From assembly GCA_951799445.1 (NCBI GenBank), contig OX637297.1:5704001-5768000 (forward strand): a DNA stretch of 64,000 bases. The letters run 5' to 3'. This document shows, in pieces, positions 31,386-62,503 of the stretch. The stretch is from Pseudisothecium myosuroides. Taxonomy: Eukaryota > Streptophyta > Bryopsida > Hypnales > Lembophyllaceae. The first letter of the stretch is position 1; the number at the start of each line of letters is the position of its first letter. A program made the translations under genes and the position numbers. Under the pieces are notes generated by a model, which saw nothing but the letters and a program-made list of their open reading frames with translations, made no database searches and had not been told where the DNA came from.

Positions 31386-31786
31386 GAAGAAAGAGAAGGG
31401 ATTAAGACTGAAACACCTCTGAAACAGGGCTTCACCTTTGTCAAAACCTAACTTTATGCTTCACAGTGAATTACATCACTTTTTTAACATTATAAAATAT
31501 TGTTTTGGTAAACACAAGTATCAAATTAGATACTACCAAACAATGTATTGTGTCACTATAAGTCCTGAGACTATCAAGATTGCCATAGCCCACTCATGTC
31601 TATTCACAAGTTCCAAACATAAAACAAAGAACCCAAGCAGGATGAGTCCATGTGCTTGACTGATAAAATCTTGTACCAATCCCATATTAGAGAAATTGGA
31701 TTTGAAGGCTGAGCCTCACCTATGCCCGTCCCAAAATACAAAACAATCTAATGTTATGTTAGTGAGGATGCACAAGGTGTCTTCAG
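31386..31786. repeat. 1.27-kb tandem unit 2, left part, ending in TSD GTCTTCAG
   Basis: Left portion of the second unit, interrupted by the giant element. The last 8 bp (31779-31786, GTCTTCAG) are repeated at 62496-62503. The rest of this unit continues at 62504. Confidence 0.8.
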
Positions 31787-31809
31787 CAGGGTTGTCTTTC
31801 CTGACCTGT
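31787..31809 (+). repeat. left terminal inverted repeat of the giant element
   Basis: CAGGGTTGTCTTTCCTGACC and onward; fits the hAT terminal consensus YARNG. It differs from the right end at four of the first 23 positions. Confidence 0.75.
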
Positions 31810-31924
31810 CGACAACTCGACAAACACAACGTCACAGACAGACAAGAGTCCCTCCGTCCGTCTAGTAAAGTCAAGTTTTACCCTTGACTTTTTTTAAATA
31901 ACCCTCCATTTACCTTAGCCTAGA

Positions 31925-31944
31925 CGGACGCCATGTGGCGTCCG
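31925..31944. repeat. subterminal perfect palindrome
   Basis: CGGACGCCA-TG-TGGCGTCCG: 9-bp arms with a 2-bp centre, about 140 bp inside the left end. It may form a hairpin or a dimeric binding site. No equally perfect match was seen at the right end. Confidence 0.7.
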
Positions 31945-31969
31945 TGTGGCACAGTGCAAGGGCGCATGC

Positions 31970-32090
31970 GGGTGAAATGGGACTTCGGGTGGAGGGCGAC
32001 TGCGGGGGCAAGGCGACCGCGGGTAGGGCGACTTCTCCTCAAGGGCGACTTCGGATCAAGGGCGACTTTGGGTACAGGCTAGTCCAATTT
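31970..32090 (-). promoter_or_regulatory. left subterminal motif array, pointing outward
   Basis: Four to five copies of GGCGACYKCGGGT (minus strand ACCCGCGGTCGCC-type) face the left end. Orientation flips at about 32090, where the gene A promoter array starts. It mirrors the outward array at 62048-62310. Confidence 0.65.
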
Positions 32091-32094
32091 GGAC

Positions 32095-32356
32095 CAGAAG
32101 TCGCCCAAGTCGACCCGCGGTCTCCCAACAGCATCCGCACGCGCCCCGTACCCGCGGTCGCCAGCTCTCCCTGCGCGCGCCCTCCCGCACCCGCGATCTC
32201 CGGACGACCTACACGCGCCCCTCTCAGCCCGCGGTCTCCCTTTCGACCCGCACGCGCCCTTGGACCAGCGGTCGCCCACCCGACCCGTGTTCTCCTCTCA
32301 ACCTGCACGCGCCCCTTGGACCAGCGATCGCCACCCGCGGTCACTTTCCTATAAAT
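32095..32356 (+). promoter_or_regulatory. gene A promoter: ACCCGCGGTCGCC array and TATA box
   Basis: About eight GC-rich motifs alternate between ACCCGCGGTCKCC forms and GCACGCGCCCC forms, in the sense of gene A. TATAAA follows at 32350-32355, then about 165 bp of leader to ATG 32521. Same layout as genes C, D and E. Confidence 0.7.
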
Positions 32357-32520
32357 CCGTCGCCCGTGTTCTTTTTTGGTAACTTCCTTCTTCACTTGGG
32401 CTATACGGCTTGTACCCATTCGTGGCTACATGCGATACCTTAAGTAAAGAAAAATAACTATTTTTATTATCTACGGTTGCGGTCTTGGATTTTGGCGAGC
32501 CTCACGGTGGACATTTATTC

Positions 32521-35010
32521 ATGGCTAGCACAGGAAACACCAATGGGATAGTTCCCATTTTAGCTACTGCTCAAAATGCCGGGGCAGTGAGAAAGGCTGC
32601 TCTAGACAAGAATCGGAAGCGCAGAGGTACTATACATCAAAAACGGTTGCATGTGCTGAATAGTGCAAATCACCTTGCATTTAAAGGGTGGGGCGAGGAG
32701 CCGGAACCATGAACAATAAAAACCTGTGAAGATTATATTGAATGGTGCCACATCGACAAGTTATTTCCAGCATGGCGGCATTATCAAAACCGGCACACAA
32801 ACAAGGCAAACTTGAAGTACTGTGAAAGTCCAGCTTTCCTTCAAAGATGCTTCAAGTTGTGGCAAGTCCTTTACAAAACCGCCTTCGTAGAAAGAAATGA
32901 AGTCCCCCTCTTCCTTGCGAGAGGAGCATATGCTGAGGTGGCACTAAACAAAGAGGTTGATTGGAGCACGGTCAAGGAAAATACGTACATTACACGTCCA
33001 AAAAACGGTTCCATACCTAAAGGTGTTTTGACTTTTCCAGAGGGTGGACTTGGACCTATTCGAAGTACTCCTAAGAATCAACCCCCTGTTCAAATTGAGA
33101 GCGCGGAATCCAAAGAGGATGACGATTCGGATGGTACGCGTCTTCCCAGGACAACACAAGTTGTTGAGGAGTTTTTAGCCCCCATCGACATTCAAAATGG
33201 AAGTAACGAGGCAAGGGAAACCTCGCGAGGACGTCAGAACAGACCAGCACCAAGGGTGCGACATTCAATCAATCGAATTGGAACTGCATCGGTCTCTATG
33301 GCGGTTTCAAGACCAGCTGCACCACCACCATATGCGAGCAACGTCTTTGATTTTAGCCAAGACGAAGACATGGCGACGGAACGAACCGTCCACGTTCTTC
33401 TTCTGCAATCTCGAGTACAACCAACTGACGACGTGATGACCTTGGCAAAGGCCCTAGACCTCTTGAAGACGAAGGATGCCACCATAGCTTCTCTAGAATC
33501 TGATGTGAGCAAACTGTGGTCCGAGTGTGAACACAAAAAGGTCCTCATTTCACAACAGTCTGTAGAACTACAACGCCTCTGAGACAAAGAGCGGAAGACT
33601 TTCAGTTTGTCGGATATGGATGACACCTTCATTGACCACGATCCACTGCAGCTGGAGAAGGTAGTAGGGGACTTGACCAGTGACATCCTTCACCGTTCTC
33701 CGCCTTCCAAGCGTATCAAGCGTGCTTCATTAATTCCAAGTGCACTTCCTACTGCCACCATGATAGATACTACAAATGACACGACTGATCTCCATGGCAC
33801 CCAAGATTCACTCTCTTTTCCAACAGTACTACATTCCACACCATCAGATAAGGATAAGGAACTTCTTAAGGATAATGGATTGCTTAGAAAGCGTTTGGCT
33901 GAGCTGCTGGCAACATACTATTATTGGAAGGTCGCGTGCATTTTAACCGTGGACCAATCTCAACAAATCGCAATGGAATTGGATAAAGTTTCGAAGAACT
34001 TTCATGCAGATGCCCCGAAATGAGAGAATAGGCTCACGTCGTGGGCGTTGGTGGGAGACATGTTTCCCGATGACATGCCCATGATGGCCGCGCCGGCAAA
34101 AAATATAATAGATTGGGCGCAAAATGGTTGGGACCACGGAAATCAAATGTCCTCCCACGACGACATCGAAGGGCGGACGTTGCTTTGGCCGAAGCCTGCT
34201 TCTTTTGTCTTGGACCAAATCATGTGTCCTATATGTCAAAACCAATTTGGACCTGAAGGCAGTTGGGCTCTTGGATTCTGTGCCCATGTCTACCACCCTC
34301 AGTGCCTCATCACGCAATGTTTGATTAGACAACGTTGCGGTCTCTGCTCAGCACCATTCTATGATCGTCTGTATGCCATGTTCAATTTGATGACTTACAT
34401 GCCACCTTCTTGGGAACACAACGTTGACACAACGACAGAGCGGAGCTTATGGGGTCGAGACTTGGTTTGGAGTTGGCGATCGGCCCAGTATGACCTAGAA
34501 AAGGGACAACCTAGCGCGTAGTTGAATTGGGAAACTGACCCGGCCGAAATTGGTCAAGTTGCACCAAGGCTAATGAGAAAAGGCCCACAAAACAAAGGAA
34601 GGAGGGCATTCTTCTTCCAATGCCTTGGTGGATATTTTGATAAGAACTCCTCCACCTTCAAGTGGGGTCCTCATCCTGAAGGGCATCGTTGGAATTTCCA
34701 AGGGGAGAGGACGGCCAATACCGATGAAAATGCCTCGTTAAAAGAGTTGAATGATGCGCAGTACATGGACTCCACGTATGGACCTTATTACGTGAGTCAA
34801 GCACTAGACTATTTGTTGGAAGTACACTCTCCGGGGACAACAAGGACCCTCCAAGCTCTGAAAGACTCCAATGTCTTGGAATCCATATTGAATGCGGACG
34901 GACCAGCTTCACGAACTCGTGCCAGGAGGAAGCTTGGGGTTGAAGAGTCATCCAACTACAAACGTGGTGAAGGAAGTGGTACTCGAAATGACCTGAATGT
35001 TATCGTCTAA
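32521..35010 (+). pseudogene. gene A: WCHID-domain and RING-H2 protein, ~829 codons with four in-frame stops
   Basis: One reading frame runs from ATG 32521 to TAA/TAG-free ends at 35010, broken only by TGA 32710, TGA 33580, TGA 34021 and TAG 34519. There is no frameshift over 2.49 kb. Residues ~53-165 carry the novel domain (AFKGW..., EWCHIDKLFPAW, NKANLKYC, VDWSTVK). A short helical segment near 33430-33580 may be a coiled coil. Residues ~568-615 are a RING-H2 finger: CPIC...FCAHVYHPQC...RCGLC. A ~150-aa C-terminal region (FFQCLGGYFDKNSSTFKWG...) is unassigned. The first stop replaces a Trp conserved in B and D. RING proteins usually act as ubiquitin ligases; here that is inference. Read as a decayed gene, unless stops are read through. 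Confidence 0.65.
34224..34362 (+). other. RING-H2 zinc finger in gene A
   Basis: Spacing C-x2-C-xn-C-x-H-x2-H-x2-C-xn-C-x2-C with residues CPIC, FCAHVYHPQC and RCGLC: all eight zinc ligands are present. This order (C3H2C3) is the RING-H2 type found in E3 ubiquitin ligases. Confidence 0.7.
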
Positions 35011-40297: not shown

Positions 40298-41788
40298 CTA
40301 GGTTGTTTTTTTGCGTGGGAAGAAGTCACTCCACATAGGCTCCGGGCCTATTTCCTCTAATTCTGGACCACTCTTTCCTATGGTATCCTTACACCACCTG
40401 TACCACTTGAAACGATAATCATTCTCGGCCTTTAGATCAAGAAGCTCATTGGCCAATAAATGTACTCTCTGGTCACGCAATTGTACGTACTTTTGAAGCA
40501 TTGTTAATTCCTCAGGATTACAACCATACTCGGAGGCTGCAGCCTCAGCATCCACCTTCAAGATGTTATGGACAGCGGCATCAAAATATTCTTTTTCTTT
40601 CTCTTTTATTTCAAGATTTAAGCTTCGCTTCTTGTTCTCTGCTTGACGGCGTCTGCGTTGAAGGGTTTCTAGTTTAGATTGCCATAAAAGGTAGATGTCC
40701 ACTGTGAACTCTTTTCCACTTTCAAGTTCTTTCACATACAAATCTCGATTTCTCTTCAATTCAACAAAATCCTTCTCGTTTTGTTCAACGATGTTCACCA
40801 AAGCCTTCACCCGTTGCTTCAACACATCCACAGCGGTCGGATTCGCTTCACGTTGCTTTAAATTCTTCAATTGCTCAGTCTTGGCACGTTGAGGAAACCT
40901 TGTACTATCAATTTTTGCAATCAACAAAGTTCTATCATCTTCTGAATCGCTTTCACTACCACTCTGCAACTGCTCTTGTAAAGAGGGGTTCGCTTGTACA
41001 GCCTAGGCCACATCTTCCATGACTTCATCAGAGCAAGGGGTAACTACAATGGGATCTTCGACCCTTTTCTTCTTCTGGTGAACTCCCAAGTCGCCCTTGT
41101 CTAGTTCTTTCATGACAACATCTTCATCGTCACTATGGAAAGAGTAGCCATTGTACTCATGTGTGTACTCATCTGAGCTAGAAGTAGCTGACCACTGTAC
41201 CAAATCATCCGGAACGAATGACTTTCCACGCTTCACGGAGGTCAACATCTTTGTCAAATCAATTGGTTCGTCTCTCCCCAAAATTGATGCGTTCTCTGGA
41301 TGCACTCCAATGGGGACCCGCTTTAGTGTTGTCCAATCCACCTTCTTCTTCAATATAAGTTCAGCATACACCATTCTCACAAGATAGAAACAGAAATTAT
41401 CGTTTTGGTAAGTTTCAGACTCCAAGTACAATTGCTGCCATACCTCGCAGCATCTAATCATGAAGTCTTGGTCCTTGGCGTGTGCAAGATTTGCTTTGTT
41501 CTGCTTCACGTGTTGCTTATAACAACACAGAGGAAATAACTTGTCAATGTGGCACCAATCCACATATTTTTGAACCGTTGTGTAACTCCAAGGTTCAGGT
41601 TCAGTTCTCCAACCCTTGAAAGCCTTAATCTTAGGGTTGAGCAAGATGGGCACACGCTTCTTGTGGTTCTTTCCTTTCCGTTTTCGAAGCTTGTCGCGAA
41701 TGGCCTTCTTCTCTAAGGCAGTGAGTGGCTCACTTTTGGAAGGGGGCGATGGTTCGAGCTCATTCTCCATAGTGATCACTTTGTACAT
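40298..41788 (-). pseudogene. gene B: WCHID-domain coiled-coil protein, 496 codons with one in-frame stop
   Basis: ATG at 41788-41786. The frame runs to 40298 and is broken only by TAG at 41005-41003. The N-terminal basic region (KLRKRKGKNHKKR) could be a nuclear signal. It is followed by the novel domain: AFKGWRTEPEPW...VDWCHIDKLFP...QNKANL...RCCEVWQQLY...VYAELILKKKVDWTTLK, residues ~60-165. An acidic linker follows. Downstream of the stop, residues ~265-440 are strongly coiled-coil (LKNLKQREANPTAVDVLKQR, LQRRRRQAENKKRSLNLEIK). It lacks the RING of gene A and resembles gene D in layout. It is one CAG-to-TAG change away from an open gene. Function unknown. Confidence 0.65.
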
Positions 41789-42370: not shown

Positions 42371-42860
42371 AGAGGCGAATTATTTATTTTTTAATTTGGT
42401 CGATTTTAGAAAGGTTAAAGTACTCTGCTGTTCAAGTGACCAATTCAGAGAGGAGGTAGGAAGCTTAAAAATCGACCATCTAAGGGCTGGTCTTCCTTTT
42501 TTTACGTATTTTCTTGGATGAGAATAGTTTTAGTTCCTTTTTCAGACAAAGAGGAATAGATGAGAAAAGATTGATATATTGGCTTTGTATTTTTCCAAGC
42601 TTTTTTGAATCATTTGTGAATTTTCAAAGAAGTTGGGTCGTAGGTCCGTATTTCTGACCCTAGGATTGTTCATAGTCAATTCTAAAGAGAAGTGAGGAAA
42701 CCAAAGAGAATGACTGGCTCTAGCAATTTCACAGTGCTTTTTTCCTTCATCCTCTTAAAGACTATAAAGGTCAATTTTAGAACCACCCCATGTCAATTTC
42801 ACAACTATTTGTAGGGGCAGAGTTTGAGCCTAACAGAGTTTGAGCCTCCTACTTTAATTG
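42371..42860 (-). repeat. upstream segment shared with gene D
   Basis: Read on the minus strand this region matches 51290-51650 (for example GACATGGGGTGGTTCTAAAA against GACATGGAGTGGTTCTAAAA, then TTGACCTYTATAGT). So the homology of cassettes B and D extends well beyond the GC-rich array and indicates duplication of the whole cassette in opposite orientation. Confidence 0.65.
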
Positions 42861-43190: not shown

Positions 43191-44273
43191 GGGTTTAGGG
43201 ACCTTCATGGAATGAGTTCTAAATTTTGACCGGACAAATTGCAAGATATGTGCATTTGAAGTGGGAAAAAAACTTTTCCAGCACATTGCGGGACTAGCTT
43301 TTTGATTTTGAACATTTTTAACTTATATGTTTTCTATTATAAGCCTATAAGGCTTTGAACTTTAAATCTTAATAGTGAAGAACTCATTTGAGCCGACTTG
43401 AGCGTCTAGAGAAAGAATATATTCAAGAAAACTTAATTTTAATTCTCCAAAAAAATGTCAAGTACAAGTAGGTATGAGATAGAAGGAAAGTCTAAAATAT
43501 TAAAATCTGAAATATAGAATTAAAATGCACTAATACCAATGGTGACATTGCTCTAGCAAGCAAAACAAAATGTAGGCTTTTCTAGTCCTTCCAAAAGGTG
43601 AAGTTTTATCTTCCAACATCTTAGGAAAAAAACACGTATGTCCTATTACTTGTGCACTTTAGACAATCTGTCGGAAAATCGGTTGAAAACATATATAAAA
43701 AAATTACACCAAATTTTTTTTTGTATTCACTTGTAAATAACTTGTAAGGTTGAAGGTATTACTGAATGAAAGATAAAACTAATATGCTATTACTTTTTGG
43801 AAGAATTTGAAAATTGTTAATTTCAATGGGGAGAATCTTCTAATAGAAAATTAATATCTTTTATTTTCATTTTCATTTCAAAATTTCAAAATCAAGAGCA
43901 AAAGATGACTTCAAATGTTTTTTCTACCTTCTAAAACCGCAAAATAAAAGTCCTCATAACTCTTACCTCATTATTTGAAATTGAGTGGTTCAATTTTTTG
44001 GAGGTAGGGATCAATCTACAGAATTCCAAATAAATATTTTTTATTTTAAAAAAAATAAAATTTTGCTACTCTGTTTGACATTGAAATGGAAAAAAACCCT
44101 CTAACTTTTGCATTACTTATTGGAATGACACAAATCAAAGCTTCATATGTACATTATGATGAGTAGCATCCGTCCTAAAAGTTTCATGGAAAAATTCCAA
44201 ATTATAAAGTCAATAGAGCCTGCCTGAGTTCTCAAAAAGCCAAAAGTGGGCTCCTTGGTACTTGAGGGGTTAA
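43191..44273. mobile_element. two nested or abutting TTAA-type fragments
   Basis: 43191-43571 is a reversed fragment of the 22302/38786 family (TTGCAAGATAT..., GCACATTGCGGGACTAG). 43572-44273 matches the interior and right end of 9953-10753 and ends CTTGAGGGG-TTAA. The left border of the second piece is missing. Confidence 0.6.
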
Positions 44274-45210
44274 CCCCTAAAGGTTTTTGACTATGTTTTC
44301 ACCAAAACCGCTCCAAAACTGCCATTTCTAAAGCAAGTACCAAATTTTTTTTTAAAAACATTTTTGAATACATGTAACCGTAGGATCTTGTAGTAAACTG
44401 GATTAAGAAGATGTGACAAAATTTCAGAATTTTCCACCATGTAGATTGCAAGATATTAGTGTTTGAATTGACAAAACCCTTTTTTTTGTCCCTACGAAAA
44501 AACGGGCAGCTGCCCTTCACAAGGTTACATTTGTATGAAAAATGTCCAAAATGGTTGTTACTCTTTGCATTCATTTTTCAAGGCAAGTTGGCTACATGCT
44601 TGGAAATTTTCAGATTATTTGGAATTGTACAACATATAGGAAAAAAATAGTAAGTAGAAAGAGGTAGAGAATGACTCAAAATACTAAATTGTCAAGAATT
44701 TTGTTATGGAATTGAAAAATGCCAATTCCAACGGTTGGAATGTTGTAATAAACTATCTACACCCAGTGGTTTTATTTTTTTTCAAAAATATTGAAAATTG
44801 AGTCAAATAAAGGACTTCAAAGTTTATTTTAGAGTAGAGATTCCATAACTACGCTCAAACTAAGAATCCTCATAACTTTTGACTCATTAATCCAAGTAGA
44901 ATGATTCAAAGCTTCCCATGTATAAATAAATCTAAAGAACCAATTTCAAATTTTAATTTTTCAAAAAAGTAATTTTTAAAGAATTTTTTTCAGCTGCCCG
45001 GGCTGCCCGCCGAACGTGGAAAATTACATATCATGCAATAACTTTTTAGCCATGTAGTCAAAAGTTATGAAAATTGTTGGGCCTTGAAGCTACACATCGG
45101 GCTCATCTTGTGTGAAAATTTCAAAGAAAAATAGTAAAATTTCCATTTGTAGTGAGCTGCCCAAAATCGCTATGTTGCCAAAAAATGGTGTTTGGTCCTT
45201 TAGGGGTTAA
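44270..45210 (+). mobile_element. TTAA-type (piggyBac-like) MITE, 941 bp
   Basis: TTAA at 44270-44273 and 45207-45210; ends CCCCTAAAGGTTTTTGAC and CCCCTAAAGGACCAAACACC (inward). It shares its left TTAA with the right end of the preceding element. Closely related (roughly 85-90% by eye) to 48745-49680. Confidence 0.85.
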
Positions 45211-46431
45211 TGAAAAAACTACCTGTGTTGTAGTCAAGAACGCTAAGAACTGAGATGGACAATTTCATTAAAATGCCGGTATTCCAAGTGCCACTTTGAT
45301 GGTGTGCCATTTTCACCATCTAGGAGAGGTATAGATTTAGAACGGCTGTTTTGAACTATTTTCATGCCATTTTAAAATAATATGGCCATTTAAATGAAAT
45401 TGCCCATTTAGGTCTTGAAGACCTCATTATTATTATTATACTACTAAAATCATAACTCCCTTTGTAATATTACAAATGCTACCATTAATAATAGGGGCTC
45501 ATGCTTGCTATGCTACGCATTCATTGTATCACATATTAGTAAAATTTTGATATATTTGAATAGAATGCATAATAATGATTTCAATAAGTCTTTGAAATAA
45601 TTAATTTTAATATTTTGTAAAAATATTTTCAATCATGCGTATATAAAAATAATATTTTCACACAATGTTATATTACAGAAATAGAGTAGTAGTTTGCAAT
45701 CACCTCTGTAATATCACTTTTACAGCTTTTATGATTTCAAAATTCTATTGCTACTACCAAATGATTTGAGAAATTTATCCAATTGAAGCGATTTTGGATT
45801 TCACAACAATTAAGTTGTTCATGAAATTTACAAATTTTTCTTTTCAATTCACCAAGTTTCTGGATTGCCATTGTTCGTAACAATTGAGTCAACTTTTGAA
45901 TGCATTACAATAAATGTGTATCTTTTACAATATTCACCATTTCATATATTTCATTCATCATTCAATAAATTTCTCTTGTACGTTTCAATATATGCTTACT
46001 TATAAACAAAATTATACAAAGATTTTAGTAATTTTTATTTGAAGATTTATTGAGATTTTTGTTCTGCATTTTATCTAATATATAAAAATTCTAATAAAAT
46101 TCTAATGATGAATGCGTAGCACAGCAAGCGCCAACCGCTAATTAATGTTAAAAATGCAAAACTTTTAGTCATTAATAATAGAATTCAATCATTGGTAGCA
46201 AAAACACTCATGACATAAATTATACAATGTTTGTGCCTAAAATCAGAATTTGAGGTAGAACACATTGAACAACACAATTTGCACATACAATCATCCATAC
46301 TTTAAAAAAATTAGCACTTCATATAAAATGTAGTTTATGAATTCATAGTGCTATTCCGAAATGGGAGATGAACAACGTCCCCTACATTCCTGTTCTTGCT
46401 AAAAACAATAACATTGTATCCAACTACTCTA
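45211..46431. other. no gene; downstream flank of gene C
   Basis: AT-rich with short frames only. A tract at 45430-46140 has repeated words such as ATGCGTAGC(A)CAGCAAGC but no clear unit. Confidence 0.4.
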
Positions 46432-48018
46432 CTACACGACAGAATCCCGGAAAACTAATTTGGGAGGCTTCATCAACCACGGTTTACCCATGAGCATGTC
46501 CACCACTTCAGCGCATGTTCGTCTTTTTTCAACATCAGGCTCGGTAAGTTCGCATAGCTTTATCGCAAAGTATCGTTGTGTGTCAACATTTATGAATAAG
46601 TCCGCATCGAAGTCGTGTCCATTTCCAATTTTCATTGACTGGGCCAGCTTCCCTATAGAAAACGAATCCGACTTCACCGTATATTTGTGTGTTGCTTGCA
46701 TCATCTCTAGGCTCCTTTCCAGGTCTTCATTTGAATACATATAGAACAACTCTGGAGCCACCCACCATTTTCCTTCGAAGTAACGATCCTTGTCTTCTTC
46801 TCTTCTATATGCATAATGTGAGGCGTATCCTTCATGAATGCGACTAGCAAGTCCCCAATCACAAATCCCGATGTTGATAACGTCTTCCGAGTATCCCGGA
46901 AAATGGAACAATACGTTTTGAGGGGACAAGTCATTGTGTAGCACCCCTGCTTGGTGCACAAGACTTGTGACATACACCAAAGCCCAAGCCAACTTCACCT
47001 TGTGCCTTCGGAACAAGCTAATTATTTGTACCTCTTCCCCTGTAAGTTCCTTCACCAGCTTGATTTGATTCCATTCAGCATGTGGCACCACCTTGTCGTT
47101 GAGAATAATCATGTTCTTCAAATGACCACCATTCCACCACAATGTGTACGCCTCCATTGTATAGTCATGGACAACCAAGAATTTAATAATGGCTGGATGA
47201 TTCAATGGACAGGCAAGGGCCTCTATGGAACGACCCACCCTTGCCTCACGCGGGTTTGTTGCTTTTGACACTTTCCCTGCAAAATGTACATGTCGCGGGA
47301 TTATATCCATTCCTTCAATGTGTACTTTGTGCACCTTTCCGTATCCACCCAGGTTGTCGTATCCAGTGAGGGCAACAACTTGAGCCTCTCTAAAGATCCA
47401 CGTGACACATGATGCACCATCCTTAGACAATTGAGCCTTCAATGCAGTAGCAAGCCATCCGATACCCCTAGTTTGTTGTCTTGACAATCTTTTTGCTGCA
47501 TCTTGCCACCAATCCATCTTCTGGCGAAACTCCCTTGCCGCCTCCCCTTTTGGAAATCCGGGTACAAGAGGGCGCAACTCAAGCATCAATCTCTTAGTGT
47601 TGAATATGCAAACTTGCTGATAGTTTGATATCCAAGTGTGAATTTGGTTATGGTACACATCTTGCACGTCCTTATATTCCGCATTTTCATTGCACTTTTC
47701 CGTAATTAAAGCCAGGAAATCATCCTTCAACTTCTCCATGCCTGGCCCTTTATTTCTCAAGTACTTCTTCTCCAAATACTGGGTGCTTTCTTCCTCGTAC
47801 CATTGCGAAGCCATCCTGTATACGAAGGTCGTATATCTTGGCGGAGGATAATCCAGATCCTTCTCGTTTGCTGTCCTTGGCTTTTTTGGTTTTGATGGAC
47901 CCGCGCCCCCCATTTGCCCACTTGCAAATATATCCGGAAGAAACTGACTAGGATGGTCAAGGTCCCTATCCCAAATAGAGATCCATAATGTATTGCTCCC
48001 TTCCCGTGGATCAGACAT
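46432..48018 (-). CDS. gene C: intact divergent protein kinase, 528 aa
   Basis: ATG at 48018. Single uninterrupted frame. Residues 1-200 form an unfamiliar N-terminal region with Trp-rich patches (YRMASQWYEEES, KMDWWQDAAKRL). The kinase domain spans ~218-520: glycine loop LGGYGKV (223-229), Lys249, candidate helix-C Glu266, catalytic loop HNDLSPQN (361-368, an HND variant of HRD with Asp363 and Asn368 kept), metal-binding DWG (387-389) in place of DFG, APE (421-423) and a late Arg near 499. All catalytic residues are retained, so it may be active. It is the only one of the five cargo genes without a stop. It has the same promoter array and leader as B and D. Substrate unknown; cytoplasmic or nuclear, no signal peptide or membrane segment. 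Confidence 0.85.
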   Translation of the reverse strand: MSDPREGSNTLWISIWDRDLDHPSQFLPDIFASGQMGGAGPSKPKKPRTANEKDLDYPPPRYTTFVYRMASQWYEEESTQYLEKKYLRNKGPGMEKLKDDFLALITEKCNENAEYKDVQDVYHNQIHTWISNYQQVCIFNTKRLMLELRPLVPGFPKGEAAREFRQKMDWWQDAAKRLSRQQTRGIGWLATALKAQLSKDGASCVTWIFREAQVVALTGYDNLGGYGKVHKVHIEGMDIIPRHVHFAGKVSKATNPREARVGRSIEALACPLNHPAIIKFLVVHDYTMEAYTLWWNGGHLKNMIILNDKVVPHAEWNQIKLVKELTGEEVQIISLFRRHKVKLAWALVYVTSLVHQAGVLHNDLSPQNVLFHFPGYSEDVINIGICDWGLASRIHEGYASHYAYRREEDKDRYFEGKWWVAPELFYMYSNEDLERSLEMMQATHKYTVKSDSFSIGKLAQSMKIGNGHDFDADLFINVDTQRYFAIKLCELTEPDVEKRRTCAEVVDMLMGKPWLMKPPKLVFRDSVV

Positions 48019-48059: not shown

Positions 48060-48400
48060 CGTAGAAACTGCAAAACCTCTCCCCCCCAACTCCCCCCTTG
48101 GCCCACGGGCACACATTCAGCCACTTCGAGGTGGGTGAAAGCCGTTGCGCAGGGCCAAGAGTGGCGACTCCGGGTCCAGGCGACCGCTTAAATACCCGAG
48201 TTCGCACTGGGGCGCGTGCAGGTCTGATGGCGACCGCGGGTTTGGGCGACCACGGGTTCCCGCACCAAGGGGCGTCTGCGGGTTTCGGCGGAGACTGGGC
48301 AACTTCAACTGCGACTAGGCAACCTCGGGTGCGGCAGCAGGCGACTTCGGGAAGGGAGACTTCGGGTACGGAGACCTCTGGTACTGGAGGGCCTTTTCTC
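48060..48400 (-). promoter_or_regulatory. gene C promoter array, TATA-like box and conserved leader
   Basis: Minus-strand motifs ACCCGCGGTCGCC, ACCCGTGGTCGCC, ACCCGAAGTCTCC and CACGCGCCCC (48190-48400) precede GGGTATTTAAGC (TATTTAAG at 48194-48187). The leader contains TGCGCAACGGCTTTCACCC, CACCTCGAAGTGGCTGA and GTGCCCGTG, shared with genes B and D. Confidence 0.7.
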
Positions 48401-48744: not shown

Positions 48745-49680
48745 TTAACCCCTAAAGGTCACAGACTATGTTTTCACCAAAACCACTCTAAAACTGCCAT
48801 TTCTAATATAAGTACCAAACTTTAGAAAAAAAACATTTTTGGACACATGTAACCGTAAGAGCTTATAGAACACTGGTTTGAGAAGATGTGGAACAAATTT
48901 TAGAATTTTCCGCCGTTGGAAAATATTAGCGTTTGAATTGACAAAACCCCTTTTTTGGTCCCTTCAAAAATCCGGGCAGTTGCATTTCACAAGGTCACAT
49001 TTGTATGAAAGAATGCCCAAAATGGCGGTCACTCTTTGGATTCATTCTTCTAGGCAAGTTGGCTACATGCTTGCAAAATTTGAGATCATTTGGAATTGCA
49101 CAACATATAGGAAAAAAATAGTAAGTAGAAAGAAGTAGAGAATGATTCAAAACACTAAATTGTTAAGAATTTATTTATGGAATTGAAAAATGCCAATCCC
49201 AACGGTTATAATGTTGTAATAAAAAATCTAAATCCTATTTTGTTAATTTTTTTCAAAAATATTGGAAATTGAGTGAAATAAAGGACTTCAAAGTTTATTT
49301 TAGAGTAGAGATTCCATAACTACCCTCAAACTAAGAATCCTCATAACTTTTGACTCATTAATCCAAATGGAATGATTTGAAGCTTTCTACGTACATATAA
49401 ATCTAAAGAATCAATTTCAAATTTTTATTTTAAAAAAAAATGATTTTTAAAGAATTTTTTGAGTTGCTCGGATTGCCCGCCATACACAAAAAATTATATA
49501 TCATACAATAACTTTTTAACCATGTAGTCAAAAGTTATGAAAATTGTTGGGCCTTAAAGCTACTCCTTGGGAACATCTTGTGTGAAAATTTCAAAGAAAA
49601 AAAATAAAAAATCCACTCGTAATGAGCTGCCCAAAATCACTATGTTGTCAAAAAACGGTGTTTGGACCTTTAGGGGTTAA
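48745..49680 (+). mobile_element. TTAA-type (piggyBac-like) MITE, 936 bp
   Basis: TTAA at 48745-48748 and 49677-49680; ends CCCCTAAAGGTCACAGAC and CCCCTAAAGGTCCAAACACC (inward). Sister of 44270-45210. It lies upstream of gene C, about 350 bp beyond the promoter array. Confidence 0.85.
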
Positions 49681-50480
49681 GGTGAAAGTGAGTTAGTCAC
49701 ATTTGTCGGGGCCTAGGTTTTTGAAGCTCTACGTTTTTTTTCCTTTCCTAAATTTTGAGGGGTGAAAGTCAATCACTCCCATTTTCAAGATTCCCCCATA
49801 AAATAATTCTACATTTTTATGTCAATAATGTTCGCTAAACCACTAGTATGTCAAATTTCCCGAGCTTATTAGTCTACATGTGAAATGATTACTAAAAGAA
49901 CTAAAATCCCATTCACTATTCCACCACCTTGATGATAAAACCTTATAATAAATCATAAACCCATAAGTGAAATTGTTGTTGTTCTTCATCCTTTGTGGGT
50001 TCTAACATTTCAAGTTCGAATTCCTAAGGTTAAGAATTATAAGAAGTGGGACCACGTATCAAAGTTTAGGTTCTTCATGAATTTTCTAAAATTCCTACAA
50101 ACTTAAAAGAGGCTTTTGGCATTTAGAAGAAAAGGCACCATTCCACAATACTTTGAAGTGAAAAGAACCGTAATCAAATTCTGGTTTGCAGTAGTTTATG
50201 TTTCTCCTAAAGTTGCCCTCACCGAGGAACGAATTGTGGGCACATTCTGTGGCACTTTCTGTAGTAGCGGTCGACAAGGACCCGCACTCGCCCTTGGTCC
50301 ACCAAGCCAGCCAGTAAGGTAACAGCTGCAGGATTCCCTAATCCGAGGGTGTGTGGGTGCTCCCTATTCCATAGTTCTGTAAAGGAATTTTGCATTAAAT
50401 GATCGCTGTGAATTCCTTGTGAAGGAATATTGTGTCAAAAATGAACTACAATTTAGTTACAATTTAGTTTAAAGTATAAA
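49681..50480. other. no recognisable gene
   Basis: Short frames at 50095-50322 on both strands have no domain. Contains CTTGTCGACCGC-type GC-richer words near 50265-50300 but no array. Confidence 0.35.
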
Positions 50481-50529: not shown

Positions 50530-50543
50530 ATAACCTTTAAACA

Positions 50544-51200
50544 AGAAGTAGGAGGGCTTTGTTACAATTTTTTTAAAGATTTAACATAGAACCTCCTTTT
50601 TAATTCCACTTCCTCAAGCGTGCCTCGGTGTCTTGAATTTAATTGGGAGTGCAAAAATTGGGATGGAGAATTCCTAATGCCTATGGCCTCTTCGTTTTAT
50701 TTTTATTCTTGAAATGACCGTGGTAATTGGAATTTGTGGCACGTGATAAGTGTAGAGGATGAAACCCAAAAAAATGGGGAGGGAATTAAAAAAGAAGAAG
50801 TGGGAGGGCTTTGTTACAATTTTTTTAAAGATTTAACATAGAACCTCCTTTTTTATTCCACTTCCTCAAATGTGCCTCGTTGTCTTGATTTTAATTGGGA
50901 GTGCAAAAATTGGGATGGAGAATTCCTAATGCCCATGGCCTCTTCGTTTTATTTTTATTCTTGAAATGACCGTGGTAATTGGAATTTGTGGCACGTGATA
51001 AGTGTAGAGGATGAAACCCAAAAAAATGGGAAGGGACTTAAAAAAGAAGAAGTGGGAGGGCTTTGTTACAATTTTTTTAAAGATTTAACATAGAACCTCC
51101 TTTTTAATTCCACTTCCTCAAGCGTGCCTCAGTGTCTTGATTTTAATTGGGAGTGCAAAAACTAGGAGGGAGACTTCCTAATGCCCATGGCCTCCTTCTC
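50544..51200. repeat. 252-bp tandem repeat, ~2.6 copies
   Basis: Units start at AGAAGTRGGAGGGCTTTG near 50544, 50796 and 51048, i.e. a 252-bp period with few differences; the third copy stops near 51200. Each has GGCACGTGATAAGTG and poly-T/poly-A tracts. No long frame. High identity suggests a recent expansion within the giant element. Confidence 0.85.
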
Positions 51201-51289
51201 AAATAATTATTACAATTCATAGCAAGCAGGTTTTTGTTTATTTTAATTTGAAGTATGATGTGTACAAAAATTGGGTGCCTAAGGTAGGA

Positions 51290-51650
51290 GGCCGGAGCTG
51301 TGTTAAGGCGTTTTTAACCGCTGCTATAAATAGTTGCAATACGGACATGGAGTGGTTCTAAAATTGACCTCTATAGTCCTTGAAAGAATTGAAGGAAAAA
51401 AGTATTATTAATTGAAAGAGCCAATCATTCTCTTTGCTTTCTCCATCATTCTTTAGAATTGCAAGTGAAGAGTTCATGGAAAACTTGGGGTCTTAAATGC
51501 TTGGAAAAATACAAAAGCACTTGTGTTACATTCGTCATGTATTTTTCTTTGTCTGAAACATTAGTTAAAAATATTTTCATCCAAGGAAATACGTGAAAAA
51601 GGAGGACTAGCCCTTCCTACCTTAATGCATTTATGGATTGTTGACGAACC
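51290..51650 (+). repeat. upstream segment of gene D shared with gene B
   Basis: Matches the reverse strand of 42371-42860. Contains its own TATAAATAG at about 51324, roughly 900 bp before the ATG, so a second, distal promoter is possible. Confidence 0.6.
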
Positions 51651-51717
51651 AACGCCAACTGCCCTCTGATGTAGATGCTGGTGTTAGAGTGCCTGTGATT
51701 TTCAAGTAAACAGACTC

Positions 51718-52130
51718 TGACCCGCAGTTGCCCCAGACCCGCGGTCTCCGTTGCCCGCGTTGGACGTCACCCGACTTGCACGCGCCCTCGGACCCGCCGT
51801 CGCCCCAGACCCGCGGTCTCCGTTGCCCGCGTTGGACACACCCGACTTGTACGCACCCTCAGACCCACGGTCGCCCAAGACCTATGCACGCGCCCTTTGG
51901 CGACCTCGGGTTGTTGCTGATTGGAGGTCGTTGCCCCGACGTGCACGCGCCCCGAGAACCTCAAGTTAGTGTCAGACCCGCGGTCTCCATCACCCGCACT
52001 CGCCCCAGGGCGACCTCGGGTACTTAAGAATTGACTGGCCCTCATTCTGCATACTTTCTGCGCTGTGCAACGTCTTCCAACCGCCTTGAAGCGTCTGGAT
52101 GCGTGCCCGTGTGTGGGAGGTTGGGGTCGG
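51718..52130 (+). promoter_or_regulatory. gene D promoter array, TATA-like box and leader
   Basis: Motifs GACCCGCGGTCTCCG (three copies), ACCCGCCGTCGCCCC and GCACGCGCCC (51718-52020) are followed by GGGTACTTAAG (TACTTAAG 52021-52028). The leader has TGCGCTGTGCAACGTCTTCC, GCCTTGAAGCGTCTGGATG and GTGCCCGTG, related to genes B and C. ATG is at 52234. Confidence 0.7.
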
Positions 52131-52233: not shown

Positions 52234-53775
52234 ATGGATCCGAGCTTGAAGAAGAAAAAACCAAAAGGAGATCGCCACCATAGGCGTCGTTTCATCCTTA
52301 TAGACCCAACGGTGGTGGCATTCCAAGGTTGGCGTAGCATCCAAGCAGATTGGACCTTGACAACTTGCAAGGCATTTGTGGGATGGTGCCATATCGACGA
52401 GTTGTTCCCTTACCATCGGCACAGGCGCCATTTGAACCAGAACTATGCAAACCTACATTATTGCAGAGATGACGCATTCGTGCAACAATGTATTGAGGTA
52501 TATAGATTTTTATACGGAACACAAAAAATTCCGCGAAGCGAAGTTGGGTTGAACATATGCCAAATGGTGTACGCAGAACTATAGTTGAATTGGACGGTGG
52601 ATTGGAGTACCATAAAGGCATCGAAGAAAATCTCCATTCCAACAACCAAAGACATCCCAAGGGCGGGCCCTTCTATTAATCCACGGCAGGGGCTAGGGCC
52701 AAAGAAGAATATCAAAGACCTAGTGGCTGATGTAAACTATCAGTGGTCAAATTCATCTAACGCAGACAGCTCGGATGATGAGGTTGGTCCCGACCCCGTG
52801 GACAGGATGGAAGACCCACCAGTGGAAGGAAATTTATCACTAGTAGTACCGAAAGAAGGGGCCATGGGAGGTGCCCTAGCGGTTTACGTGGAACCACTCG
52901 TAGCAGTTGAACGAGTGCAAGGCACTCAAGCAAGTTTGGACGAAGTACCTCGGGATGTGCATGCACAGATGCATGAAAATGTGGAGGATAGATTTGAGGG
53001 TGAGATTATAACGCAATAAAGGATTGTGCCTTCCTTGCTACAAGAACGTGATGTTGTACTTCCGGAAAACAATATTCGGCGAACAAAAAAGTCTTATAAA
53101 GAGGTGCTGAAGAAGCTTCTAAAAGACTTAGATGAAGAACAACAAGAGTGTGAGATATTGCAAGACCGGATGGCGGAGGATGTTGAGGTCGACGATGTCC
53201 ACGCTCTTGAAGCACTAATTCAAAGCGGGCAAATTCATTTGTCGGTCCAGCAAAAGGAGATGGAAGAGTTGGAAGAATTTTACCTTAAATTCAAGAAGGG
53301 GCAAGATGGAGGGTCAAGCTCAAATGCCAACCCACTAGTGGAGGAACGTCTTCACAAAATTATGGACGACTGCAGAATGGAAGAGGATCGAGGAATCGAA
53401 GAAAGGAAAAGTGTGGAGGAGGCACAATTAAGGTTGAATCACCTCAAAGAAATGAAGGATCATGCAACCATTGACTGGGCTTTGCATTTGAATGCGGTGT
53501 ATGGGGATGTGCAACATCAAATATCTGCATTAGAGGTAGCTGACTTGAAAAAGAAGTTAGCTTCTTTGAAGAGATTGGAAGCAAAGTATGAGGAAAGCAT
53601 ATCACAAGAGAAGCAAAAGATCACTATACGGAAATTACACAAGAAAGTATGGCTCCAGAATAAACTGTGGACCTATGGCCCCTACCATGAGAATATAGCG
53701 GAGGAGGAGAAAGTGGTTGAAGCCGAGTTAGCAAAGAAGAAAAGAGAAGAAGAGGGCCATATGGATGTTGCATGA
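52234..53775 (+). pseudogene. gene D: WCHID-domain coiled-coil protein, 513 codons with two in-frame stops
   Basis: ATG 52234 opens a frame to 53775 that is interrupted only by TAG 52582 and TAA 53017. A basic N-terminus (KKKKPKGDRHHRRRF) precedes the novel domain (AFQGW...DWTLTTC...GWCHIDELFPYH...QNYANLHYC...MVYAEL...VDWSTIK). An acidic middle follows. Downstream of the second stop, residues ~265-510 are almost entirely coiled coil (KSYKEVLKKLLKDLDEEQQE, LEVADLKKKLASLKRLEAKY). Layout is the same as gene B, in opposite orientation, with a duplicated upstream region. No RING. Probably a duplicate of the B cassette that decayed by point changes. Function unknown. Confidence 0.65.
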
Positions 53776-55870: not shown

Positions 55871-55879
55871 ATTGTAATC

Positions 55880-57694: not shown

Positions 57695-57922
57695 GCCTAG
57701 AGGGCCACCATTTCCTTCCCACCGTGCTCCGTTGACGAACTCATGACTTGAAACTTCTAAAGAGGCTTCCTACGGACTTCAGATCTTCGGAGGGCAACAA
57801 CCTTGCTTTGAGGGGTTTGAAAGATCCCTTGAAGTGGGTGGCTTTGTCATTACTTTTTTCGATACTACACGTTGCTGGATTATATTTTTTTTGAGTGAAA
57901 GACCTTGTGGACAATCACCAAT

Positions 57923-60618
57923 ATGGCTAATCGAGTTGTTGGGAGGACCAATGGTAACGATACACGGAGGGCTACAAGGGAATGGGACCCTTAGTTGGTT
58001 TTGGAAATTGATCCTAATAAAGCCGCAAATTCGAGGACATGCGTTTTTTGTGGATGGAACAATGTCTTTGTACGGAAGAGGGCTCTCATGCACTTTGGAT
58101 ATGGCGGCAACCCTTCATCAGATCGTTGTAAACGTGCTCCGAGGTTAATATTGGAGAAGTTCAGGAATTGTGAGGGGATTGTCCCAAAAGAAATGCTCTA
58201 TGAAGAGATGTTTGGGGTGATTGAGGAAGGTGAGTCCGTTGCTACGCCTGTTGCTGTGCCCGTTGTTGCGCCCGTTGTTGAGCATATTGTGGCCTTGTCA
58301 GCAAAAGAATCCGCAGATCCTGTCGACACGAGCGAAATGCGGCCTTCTAATCCAGATTCGGTTGATTCTACTCCAGCAACGGTTGCGAGAAGGAGGAATA
58401 CTTCTTCCATTTCTCGCCAAATGAGCATGGATGAGGCATTACAGGTGGGTGTCAGACAAAAGTTGGATACAATGTGGGCCTCTTTTTTCTATGAGGCCAA
58501 CATTGCTTTCAACGTCGTGCGTCATCCAGCCTTTGTAAAAGCAGTGAAGGAAATGGCGGCAGCTGGATTAGTGTATCAACCGCCATCATACAATGCGGTG
58601 CACACCAAAATGATAGATGTGAAGAAGGTTGCAGCTTCGAAGATGGTGTCAGAGTGAATGGTCAAGTGGTCAAAATGCGAGCACGTAAAGCTTGAGAAGA
58701 CATCCATTCGGGAGCATTTTGGCAGGAATGTGCCAATTATCAGTACTTGATGAAGCCCGCTCTCTTAGCCCTTCGAGTGTTTGATAGAAAAGTTTCGGCA
58801 ATGCCCCAAGCTTGGATGGTAATGCACGCCTTGAAGCTCCATGTTTACTCTCTCCATAATGAGCCGTATTTTCTAGATGATGCAACAACGGCAAAGTTCA
58901 GAAAGCAATTTGATGCTCGATGGAAATTGATGCATACTGACCTCTATTTTGCTGGGGCACTACTTAACCCGTATTTGGCCGAAGTAGCAGTCATTCACAA
59001 CAAAGGCGAGGCCAAGCGAGCCTTGAATCGAGTTATACAAAAACTAAGGGAGCCATTGGGAGTGTCGGAGGATGATGCAATGAGCAAGTTGACGGAATTT
59101 GAAGAAAAGACAGGCCCATTCGACCCCTTACAGGAGGCTTCCGATATCACCCGTTGTAAACTACTGCCTCATCAGTGGTGGAATCGTGTGGGTGGCAATG
59201 CTCTTCCAAAAATTGCTAGGAGAATTTTGTCTTTAACATGTTTAGCATCATCATGCAAAAGGAATTGGAGCATGTTTTCGTTTGTGCACAGTAAAGTGCA
59301 AAACCGTTTGACTGCATCTAAGGCTGAAGCATTGGTGTATATCTACACCAATAGCAAACTAGGATGGAAGAAACGTGGAAAAAATCCTGCTGAATTTTAC
59401 GAAAAGTATTTGGAAGATGCAGATACAGTCGAAGAGAACGAGGAGCCATTGTCCTCAGGATCCGAAGATGAAGTTGTGCGAACGGCAGCACGACAGGCTC
59501 AAAATCGTAGGGAGGTAGAGGAGCGTTTGCATGGAAATAGATGGGCTGGATTGGTTCCTCCACGAGACAGTCCTCCACGATGACGACGACCTTATGCAAA
59601 CACATTTGTGGGTGGTGCTGATGAGAACAGTTCGTTAGAGGAGGAAGATCGACGCACACCTGACCGGCCCCATGTCTCTGCTTGGGATGCATTTCCAGTA
59701 ATAAATTCACCGCCATTGAGGGCAAGAACTCCTGAGGACAACAATGAAGGTGTAGATATTCCAATGTCACAGGAAGTGGAACATGCCACGTCTTCTATAT
59801 CAACTCTTCCGTCCTTCAGCAGACCAGTGACTCGTCAGGCCGTTGCAGCAATTACTATGCCAGTTACCGTAGAAAGTGAAGGGCAAGAGGAGGCAACACA
59901 CGAAGAAGAGGTTTTGCCTGCAGGTTGTCCAATTTCTGCAGCACATAGCACTCCAGCAACAGTAGATGCAGACGACGATGATGATTTGCCATTGGGAACT
60001 CTCTTGAACAGGAATCGTAACGTGTCTTCTAATCGAGGAGCAACCAGAGACGTTGCTAGGGCCAGGAGGTCTATTCCAACCCTTCCGACAAGGTCGGATC
60101 TGAGTCAAGGTCTAGTGCAGAGCGTTGATGAGGAAGTTCGAGGCTCAGCTCCTCAAGCCACTCAGCCTTCATCAAGGTCTGGCCCTGGAGAATCGTCATT
60201 GGGAACGCGTGCACGTAAATCAAAGAAACGTTTTAGGAAGACGGATGACAAGAGACAGCGCAATCCTAAACGGCCCAACCAAATTGTCTAGCGGTTTATT
60301 ATAGGCGCAAGTAATTCCACCCTAAACCTTGGACAACCAAGCGGAGAAGCTGTGCGACACCCTGCATCTAACATTGATGGAATCACTGATACATTGAGTC
60401 TGGTGAAACATTTGGTGTCCACTCAAGTACCCGGTGGTATAGACACTCAGGTGCGAAACCTAAACTCCGAGGTAGAATGTGAGCTACAACAAATACCAGT
60501 ACCACGAGAAGAGGACGAGAATGAGAGCTCTGGCGATTACGAGCACACGGATTCACCGCGTGAAGACACGGATCCTGAAGCTGATGAAGTGTCTAGCGAT
60601 GATACATTCACCCTATAA
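57923..60618 (+). pseudogene. gene E: hAT transposase-like (BED, DUF659 start, hAT dimerisation), catalytic core deleted
   Basis: ATG 57923 is followed by a TAG (57992) and then a BED zinc finger, C40-x2-C43-x13-H57-x11-C69, of the plant hAT type. Next is the start of a DUF659-like region (WASFFYEANIAFNVVRHPAF, then YQPPSYNAVHTKMID). After TGA 58655 the frame shifts and coding resumes at about 58697 with EDIHSGAFWQECANYQYLMK. It continues to the hAT dimerisation block ASSCKRNWSMFSFVHSKVQN, RLTASKAEALVYIYTNSKL (about 59247-59360). The roughly 250 residues that hold the first catalytic Asp residues in intact relatives are missing. A long acidic, Ser/Thr-rich tail with a basic patch continues in the same frame past TGA 59581 and TAG 60289 to 60618. 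It cannot be catalytically competent, but could still bind DNA if expressed. Confidence 0.75.
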
Positions 60619-62047
60619 TTAATAGAATTATAACATTATACATGTAGAGGCAGTAAGTAGTATTGTTAGTATCAACAATTTTTTTTCCAATGCATATATA
60701 CTTATAGCTGAAGTGTACAGCCAAATAGCTTATGGTTGGGTTTTGTGTAGTGTCTACTTAGACATGGCAATGTCTTAATTACATAGCAATGTCTCAAGTT
60801 TGGTGTGGTGACTTTCACAAGTGTTGGAGTGTTGAATATAACGGAGATGTGGAAGTTCATGTAAGTGTTGAAATCCACCTTTTGCCTCCTAATATGTACG
60901 AGTTATTATTGTTTTTATAAATATTTCTATTTCTATTTCTATAATTTCTATTGATATTATTGAATTGCATCGTTATATTAGTTCTGGGCTATAAATTGGA
61001 CCAGAAGAAAAAAGTGAACATTTTCTAAACTTTATCAAGGTGATTGTACCAAATAACTGTATAATTTAAGAGGACTCTACTCGTGCTTTTTTGTATTTGG
61101 AATACTTGGAACTTAGAAAAAGAGCCTTTAACTTTTTCAAATATTGTATTTTGGACTGTTGGAAAAAAATAGCAAAGCCAAATTCCACAATAATATAAAG
61201 ATTGGTATTATGGCTAGAGAAAAAAGCAAAAAAAGGAATTAAAGGATTGAAGAAGGTCATTTGTAATTGCTTTATGAAATGATGGTCAATTACCAAGTAA
61301 AGCACTAAAACAATTATTTGCATTCTTTGAAATGGAAATTCTCCTAAACTCACTTTTTGGACTTGTATACAACACTTTATTACTTTTTTTTAGAAATCCT
61401 CTTAAGAATAGCTAAAAGTGAACCACTTCTTCCAAACTTCATTTCCAAATTTATTTCTTTGAATAATGCTATATTGCTATGTATCCTAAAGTCCTAAACC
61501 CCATAATTGGAATTCGGAAAGTCTAACATTAAATCTAGGGCTCATTTTACAAAGTGAAACCATCTTTAAAAATAAATAAAAATTCTCTTCATTGTCCAGC
61601 CTTAGGGCATGGCCGCTTTGTATTTTTCTTTTAAAGGAGTGGGGTTACCGTTTGTTTAAAATATATAAATAAAAATATATATATATATATATTTCAAAGA
61701 TATTAAGCACGGACAACAGTAAGGTAGGAGGTTCTTAAATCGCCCACGCTACTCAAATGTACACTGCTCGTACATGTTGCTTTTTCATAGCCTTCACTAG
61801 TGTTCAAATAGTGTACATTTTAGGGAGTGGGCGAATTTAGAGCCTTATGCCACTTAAACTTCAAATTCTCACAAGTAATTCCAAAAAGCTCCAAAACATA
61901 TGAAACGACTTGGGTTACATGTCAATTCTTCTTGTTTTTCAAAGAAAATTTACTGAAAAATATTTTGAGATGTTTCACCTCCCCAATATTCAATTTCAGC
62001 TCTTAAATTAGCGATTTTTGGACCTCCTACCTTAGTTCAGTGGTCGA
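60619..62047. other. no gene; AT-rich stretch with an AT microsatellite
   Basis: 3' flank of gene E. An (AT)n tract lies at about 61672-61692. Minus frame 61066-61353 is low-complexity and unconvincing. GTAGGAGGTTCTTAAATCGC and CCTCCTACCTTAGTTCAG (61726, 62021) recall flank words around arrays B and D. Confidence 0.4.
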
Positions 62048-62310
62048 GTCTAAACCCGCAGTCGTCCCGGACGTGGGACCCGCAGTCGCCCTTGTATGTG
62101 CGACCCGCAGTCACCCGGATGTGGGACCCGCAGTCGCCTTGAACCCTGGGACCCGCAGTCGTCCACGGATTTGGTACCCGCAGTTGCCCAGTGTTTTTTA
62201 CCCACGGTCGCCCTCAATTTCAAACCCGCGGTCGCCTTCATTTTAAAAGCCACAGTCACCCAGGCAGCACCCGCACGCGCCCTGACCCAAAGTCGCCCTT
62301 CATGACGTGG
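62048..62310 (+). promoter_or_regulatory. right subterminal motif array, pointing outward, without a downstream gene
   Basis: About nine copies of GGGACCCGCAGTCGCCC-type motifs spaced ~22-30 bp, oriented toward the right end, plus one CACGCGCCC. No TATA box and no ORF follow before the end at 62495. It is the mirror image of the left outward array, the arrangement of subterminal transposase-binding repeats in hAT elements. Confidence 0.7.
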
Positions 62311-62472
62311 ACATGGCAATCTTGGGAGCCAGCCACGTAAGACAATTTTTTACCGAGGGGTAAAAAAAACCAAAACCCTAAAACCTTACTCGATGACTTT
62401 GTCGCCCACACTTGATATTTGTCATATGCGACATTGGACGTCAGACGAACAACACGACGACCAAACCCCAAA

Positions 62473-62495
62473 ACATGTCAGACAAGACAACCATG
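62473..62495 (-). repeat. right terminal inverted repeat of the giant element
   Basis: Read inward: CATGGTTGTCTTGTCTGACA; pairs with the left end at 31787. Followed outside by GTCTTCAG (62496-62503). Confidence 0.75.
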
Positions 62496-62503
62496 GTCTT
62501 CAG

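Follow-up and report, generated by a model that had tools for sequence, protein, structure and literature searches.

The interval 31787-62495 of the DNA studied here is very probably one copy of a family of giant DNA transposons of the hAT superfamily, whose long copies transpose as whole units and carry a kit of accessory genes, perhaps co-regulated. The window, meaning the whole 64,000-nucleotide stretch that was analysed, corresponds to C11:5704001-5768000 in the genome of Pseudisothecium myosuroides (388 Mb, 222 contigs). Judged by its target-site duplication (TSD), its ends and the family of its transposase, the interval is confirmed as a hAT-type element. The first-pass annotation had proposed that one transposition event moved the whole gene-carrying element. 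This proposal is upheld by an empty site, by TSDs and by dispersed collinear copies; past mobility of the whole unit is read from this footprint. The features, in positions of the window, are these.

30126..31032, plus strand: paralogous uninterrupted target repeat (empty site), from alignment to the joined flanks
31779..31786: left TSD GTCTTCAG, read directly; single copy in the empty-site repeats
31787-62495: hAT-type element, 30,709 bp, between two copies of GTCTTCAG
31787..31809, plus strand: left terminal inverted repeat (TIR) CAGGGTTGTCTTTCCTGACCTGT, from the shared-end search and genomic left-end matches
31960..32360, plus strand: left subterminal array followed by the motif array upstream of GW-C; 9 matches, the two outermost on the minus strand
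32521..35010, plus strand: GW-C gene in a single frame, with four in-frame stops and a RING-like domain (34024-34518)
40298..41770, minus strand: GW-A gene; one in-frame stop; 56% identity to P0055 over 487 aa
42030..42380, minus strand: motif array 5' of GW-A; 5 matches, 4 on the gene's strand; CpG o/e 1.00
44270..45215: nested MITE with TTAACCCCTAAAGG ends, in the window copy only; absent from the four other copies examined
46432..48015, minus strand: protein kinase gene, intact, 527 aa from Met; Pkinase E 9e-12
48150..48400, minus strand: motif array and TATTTAA 5' of the kinase; 6 of 6 matches on the gene's strand
48745..49687: nested MITE of the TTAACCCCTAAAGG family, present in all four other copies examined
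51700..52060, plus strand: motif array and TACTTAA 5' of GW-B; 9 matches, 7 on the gene's strand
52234..53775, plus strand: GW-B gene; two in-frame stops; 49% identity to P0067 over about 477 aa
57470..57700, plus strand: motif array and CTATAA 5' of the transposase gene; 4 of 4 matches on the gene's strand
57920..60616, plus strand: hAT transposase gene, inactivated; Dimer_Tnp_hAT E 2.8e-6, above the Pfam cut-off
61720..62034: nested MITE, TAAGGTAGGAGG ends; the collinear alignments of the C1, C3 and C11 copies run across it
62040..62320, plus strand: right subterminal motif array; 8 of 8 matches on the plus strand; CpG o/e 1.01
62473..62495, minus strand: right TIR CATGGTTGTCTTGTCTGACATGT, from the shared-end search and genomic right-end matches
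62496..62503: right TSD GTCTTCAG, read directly

The first-pass annotation started from an 8-bp direct repeat at both borders and from inverted ends that are related to each other. Both are there: GTCTTCAG stands at 31779-31786 and again at 62496-62503, and the two ends, imperfect inverted repeats with 3 mismatches, have CAKGGTTGTCNTNNCTGACNTGT in common. With up to 3 mismatches allowed, CAKGGTTGTCNTNNCTGACNTGT occurs in the window at these 2 places only, where 0.03 are expected; a looser scan of the window for ends gives 1 place at 5 mismatches and 5 at 6, which is about the shuffle level. The ends had also been called YARNG ends. This is correct for the left end, CAGGG, and incorrect for the right end of the window copy, which reads CATGG; CAGGG stands at 12 of the 16 other right ends. 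Of the marks by which hAT elements are recognised, short inverted ends of the YARNG type are seen at the left end and in most other copies, and the 8-bp TSD is seen in the window copy and in most of 16 other end pairs.

A blind scan of the window for TSDs combined with TIRs returned 27 candidate pairs; ten shuffles gave 10-19. Among the other pairs, two have 2 and 3 TIR mismatches, where the pair of the element has 3. Such a scan was rejected as proof on its own; it is too weak, and its result could be chance in 64 kb. For this reason, it is the empty site that decides for an insertion. Scans inside the element for the internal ends of composite elements found none beyond chance.

The joined flanks of the element align continuously to the repeat at 30126-31032 (625 identical positions in 1006 columns, 259 of which are gap columns), and that repeat holds one copy of the target, GTCTTTAG, at 30548-30555. 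The paralogous uninterrupted target thus lies where the first-pass annotation had put it. A closer empty site is the genomic repeat C4:23298900-23301500, which has a single GTCTTCAG. As aligned, the collinear empty site in the window and that on C4 cannot be explained by chance. Empty-site relatives are many because the target itself (31700-31786) is a dispersed repeat; 13 of the left-end query matches (best 40 of 166) consist of the flank repeat alone.

The rest of these 40 left-end matches are the window itself and 26 other left ends, which begin at query positions 82-89, the element starting at 88. The right-end query (best 40 of 174) returned the window and 39 others, 35 of which stop at query positions 195-203, the element ending at 200. 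From the matches listed, 16 further pairs of left and right ends, consistently oriented and separated by 9.2 to 90 kb, were assembled by hand; the other ends among these matches stayed unpaired. TSDs are identical over 8 bp in 10 of the 16 pairs and agree at 7/8 in 4. In the remaining two, one agrees at 7/8 only with a 3-bp offset, and one (C11 984640-952286) has no TSD. The two ends are thus not confined to separate places, nor do other copies go without the 8-bp duplication, and these were two doubts that had been raised about the element. The third, that the interval might be an assembly join, is answered by copies on C1, C3, C7 and C11, which are collinear with it over 18.8-27.5 kb at 94.5-95.4% identity.

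These four copies, of 31 kb (C11), 33 kb (C3), 33 kb (C7) and 60 kb (C1), were examined whole. They cover 26.3, 27.5, 25.8 and 18.8 kb of the window element, respectively. The C11, C3 and C7 copies have the gene order and orientation of the window (GW-C, GW-A, kinase, GW-B, hAT transposase); in the C1 copy GW-A is absent and the transposase gene is split by an insertion. The C1 copy (C1:6951677-7012073) contains five insertions, each 3.4-3.7 kb long, which may belong to one further mobile family. Kinase and GW-B matches (best 82 of 405 and best 82 of 493 candidates) fall in 7 of the 16 pairs, 31-90 kb long, all of them 31 kb or more. Of the nine other pairs, eight are 9-17 kb long and the ninth 45.7 kb; they show neither gene among the matches listed. 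The kit is therefore not in every member of the family, and the pairs without kinase and GW-B may be deletion derivatives. Also among the matches listed, C11 (16.9 Mb, 4.4% of the genome) holds 14 of the 26 left ends and 10 of the 14 kinases of the family; it is possibly a sex chromosome or one otherwise silenced.

Two accounts would dispense with transposition of the whole unit. Under one of these, the insertion at 31787/62496 was that of a short hAT element, into which the kinase and GW genes later came as separate nested insertions. The presence of nested MITEs and of end pairs only 9-17 kb apart is what might be expected of such accretion in place. It is nevertheless very improbable, given that the same genes are found in the same order between the same ends at other, unlinked loci, that at least one nested MITE is common to the window and four copies, and that no internal TIR rises above chance. 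Indeed, transposition of the whole unit came after the arrival of the MITE at 48745-49687, because the four other copies share that MITE. Under the other account, the copies were spread by segmental duplication. This process does occur in the family: the pairs near 11.35 and 11.38 Mb on C7 have common flanks and TSD, and so represent one duplicated insertion. (The region C7:11.34-11.39 Mb holds two short copies in opposite orientation with shared TSD and flanks, a duplicated inverted segment.) Most remaining TSD-matched pairs, however, differ in target and flanks, and their similarity stops at the terminal bases of the element, which makes segmental duplication an extremely improbable source of the copies as a whole. 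Whole-unit transposition is the reading that is kept here.

Repeats make up part of the element. The TTAACCCCTAAAGG MITE family, whose TTAA start we take to suggest a piggyBac-like origin, also has a copy outside the element at 22302-23244; partial copies lie at 35785, 39728 and 57409. The second nested family, TAAGGTAGGAGG, is also at 51280-51624 and partially near 42482-42856. At 50539-51194 a 252-bp tandem unit is repeated 2.6 times at 95%. Sequence that recurs elsewhere in the window accounts for 9,738 of the 30,709 bp; about 21 kb is left, in agreement with the earlier figure of more than 20 kb of non-repeat DNA.

The earlier count of at least five genes inside the element also stands, these being GW-C, GW-A, the kinase, GW-B and the hAT transposase. 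The transposase lies between the ends, as is expected of a hAT element. In the window copy, a 590-bp core that is present in all four copies examined whole is absent at 58654/58656, in-frame stops are present, and CERN, whose Glu is presumably a catalytic residue, reads CKRN. The other copies match hAT relatives across the missing core, and the DUF659 core is present in those relatives. The window protein has thus lost its catalytic acidic residues (with the DUF659 core, and in CKRN), while its relatives keep both. From its sequence, the window copy is without a working transposase.

The kinase has 54 database relatives, in which the expected catalytic residues Lys, Asp, Asn, Asp and Glu are conserved; among these are the HxD-type Asp, the DFG-type Asp and the APE Glu. 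The three GW proteins are members of one family, sharing an N-terminal region with conserved Trp, Cys and His. Two have a C-terminal half predicted to be coiled coil, and the third, GW-C, has the RING-like domain, whose zf-RING_2 match is below the Pfam cut-off. In the members scanned, no Pfam family was found above the cut-off and no PHROG, and comparison with solved structures gave nothing convincing, with weak coiled-coil matches only. In a weak structure model of P0055, a relative of GW-A, the N-terminal part is helical and the C-terminal half forms a long coiled coil (pLDDT 63.9, pTM 0.33). In a tree of the GW proteins (14 of 15, P0061 being dropped as it has no N-terminus), GW-A, GW-B and GW-C group with three different relatives from outside, with support of 0.73, 0.99 and 0.92, respectively. 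When 129 database relatives were compared with the window by tblastn, every match fell inside the element.

GW-C of the window copy is decayed; in the C7 copy the gene has an 850-aa open frame. An alternative genetic code was considered for the in-frame stops and rejected. Gene decay is the better reading because the stops are a mixture of TGA, TAG and TAA and because some of them are missing in other copies. A viral or prokaryotic origin of the cargo was likewise set aside, no relative being found in viral_contigs or genome_contigs. Linkage of P0003 and P0056, suggested by an equal contig size of 6460, was also discarded; P0007 and P0062 are equal as well (2045), which is too short for both genes.

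All five genes are preceded by arrays of one short motif. With up to 2 mismatches, CCCGCGGTCGCC has 42 matches in the element and 0 in the rest of the window. The arrays lie 5' of each gene and at the right terminus, and each of the six regions stands above 200 shuffles matched in composition. In the five gene arrays, counted from the motif list, 28 of 33 matches are on the strand of the gene. Here, then, are dense same-orientation motif arrays such as characterise VANDAL elements and their VANC proteins, with all 42 matches in the window inside the element. A TATA-like box directly follows the array in four of the five genes (CTATAA at -172 in GW-C), GW-A having no TATA match. In six of the ten pairs of promoters the similarity surpasses that of all 200 shuffles, though the kinase and GW genes are unrelated; the pairs that do not exceed shuffles are GW-C/GW-A and three of the four with the transposase gene. 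The promoter of the hAT gene therefore resembles the others weakly, with 1 of 4 comparisons beyond all shuffles.

The arrays are also distinguished by their CpG content. CpG o/e is 0.94-1.11 in the six arrays (1.11 in that of GW-C) and 0.66-0.77 in the genes, against 0.41-0.52 in the intergenic DNA of the element and 0.40-0.47 in the flanks. With the motif copies masked, the arrays still have 0.75-1.06. CpG richness is not unique to the element; CpG-rich DNA is also found outside it, at 15.1-18.1 kb. There, at 16126-17808 on the minus strand, is a 560-aa open frame with CpG o/e 0.91 and no Pfam family above the cut-off.

Comparisons among copies indicate purifying selection on the kit. In all 30 comparisons, made with a simple script of our own and not independent of one another, dN/dS is below 1 (0.21-0.77), the highest value, 0.77, being reached with the window copy. 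The arrangement of the genes is conserved as well. Among the matches listed, GW-B lies within 30 kb of the kinase, head to head, in 10 of the 14 members of the window's own kinase family and in 32 of 40 kinases at 48-55% identity, with one more otherwise arranged; at 29-32% identity, 0 of 23 are linked to GW-B. These counts omit, of 83 kinase rows, 6 that are second fragments of broken genes and, of 82 GW-B rows, 27 (25 weaker ones, mostly other GW members, and 2 second fragments). Many of the 23 distant kinases have 559-aa open frames, and they are perhaps another mobile family. At one locus with a 55% kinase, a GW-A fragment, a transposase and motif arrays accompany the kinase, though the transposase is in the opposite orientation. 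The stretch C2:36228500-36248499 (L071/L072), a divergent relative, has kinase, transposase and motif arrays, with a 12-bp CAGGGTTGTCTT inside and a 647-aa open frame that is unassigned.

These results bear on what the cargo is for. The kinase and GW genes might be captured host genes with no role in the element, which would then be a giant hAT with passengers, a large relative of the Pack-type elements. Plant hAT elements do pick up host DNA, according to the available part of one report (PMC8903248), the 23 host-genome kinases at 29-32% identity among the matches listed are unlinked to GW-B, and kinase and GW-B are apparently absent from the short pairs. Against this stand the purifying selection in 30 of 30 comparisons, the kinase-GW-B arrangement conserved at 48-55% identity, and shared promoter arrays that are confined, within the window, to the element. 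Pack-type cargo is host-derived and not selected as element genes; dN/dS of 0.21-0.77 and conserved linkage are not what such cargo displays, and the passenger reading is unlikely. Less easily dismissed is the idea that the arrays are only subterminal repeats for binding by the transposase, which also autoregulates the genes, with no separate anti-silencing factor. hAT transposases bind short subterminal repeats, and the arrays are found at both subtermini as well as upstream of the transposase gene. Autoregulation would, however, leave three conserved GW genes and a kinase unexplained, and we regard it as possible, if rather doubtful. The comparisons support the view that the cargo of the long copies is a conserved kit with related promoters, and not a random load.

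hAT transposases cut and paste with 8-bp duplications. By this biology, a transposase supplied in trans, or made by the window copy before it lost its 590-bp core, would have bound the inverted ends and the subterminal motif arrays, and the whole 30-kb unit would have been excised and pasted elsewhere. An element-encoded DNA-binding protein, either the N-terminal finger of the transposase or a GW protein, could also bind the CCCGCGGTCGCC arrays. By analogy with VANC, this binding would switch on all five genes together and keep the arrays unmethylated; binding and effect, taken jointly, are offered tentatively, as somewhat short of probable. The kinase, in this scheme, would act on the host or on partners within the element. 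On such an analogy, the accessory kit is perhaps an anti-silencing system.

Usual hAT elements are a few kb long. The present family resembles the hAT superfamily (Ac/Tam3-like, DUF659-bearing) in its C-terminal dimerisation domain, in the DUF659 core of its relatives, in its 8-bp TSDs and in short inverted ends that start with CAGGG in most copies. It departs from the usual hAT in its length (31-90 kb in the seven kinase/GW-B pairs), its four accessory genes and its array promoters. Giant elements are known elsewhere, of course. Starships are mobilised by a tyrosine recombinase and not by a hAT transposase. These fungal transposons are likewise giant and carry cargo, as the available parts of two accounts describe (PMC11623301, PMC12289983). 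Nearer is ToxhAT, a fungal hAT-like unit of 14.3 kb, or up to 25.6 kb with an insertion, which also combines large size, non-transposase genes and nested elements (PMC6737239, in the part available). That part gives it 74-bp TIRs and no identifiable TSD (PMC6737239), whereas the present element has TSDs, an empty site and many copies; the genes of the present element are, as far as examined, unrelated to the ToxA cargo.

Giant algal KDZ/EnSpm elements, in the portion of their description consulted, reach 30.3 kb, carry accessory genes, share nested insertions between copies and often have a pseudogenised transposase gene (PMC12477816). They belong to other transposase superfamilies, and shared promoter arrays are not mentioned in that portion (PMC12477816). 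For VANDAL21, a Mutator-like element, the available text has VANC binding dense same-orientation motif arrays (PMC5735166). There, as here, arrays of one short motif lie in non-coding regions and the motif is rare elsewhere; superfamily, motif and proteins are different (PMC5735166, same text). As to demethylation, what the present element displays is CpG retention in its arrays. The present element is not itself a VANDAL, having a hAT domain and 8-bp TSDs in place of a Mutator-type transposase and 9-bp TSD. A literature search, mostly of freely readable papers, found no giant multi-gene hAT of this kind, which is not proof of absence; in the available part of the giant-transposon review by Arkhipova and Yushenova, the term "hAT" does not occur (PMC6431247).

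It is a nearly balanced question whether these copies represent a distinct class of giant multi-gene hAT elements with its own regulon. Such a class would have five genes, one type of array promoter and a kinase and GW system for anti-silencing or activation. It would be long-lived, the kinase-GW-B module having persisted down to about 50% kinase identity, and most of its copies would be on one chromosome-sized contig of 16.9 Mb. If this is true, hAT elements would be counted with the few groups of eukaryotic transposons that extend to tens of kb and have stable accessory genes. They would offer a case in which target duplications and empty sites accompany many dated-looking copies. The VANDAL anti-silencing systems would also gain a parallel among hAT elements, and one that can be tested directly, as the same motif array precedes each of the genes. 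A transposon family that carries a conserved protein kinase, in turn, raises the question of what its substrate in the host may be.
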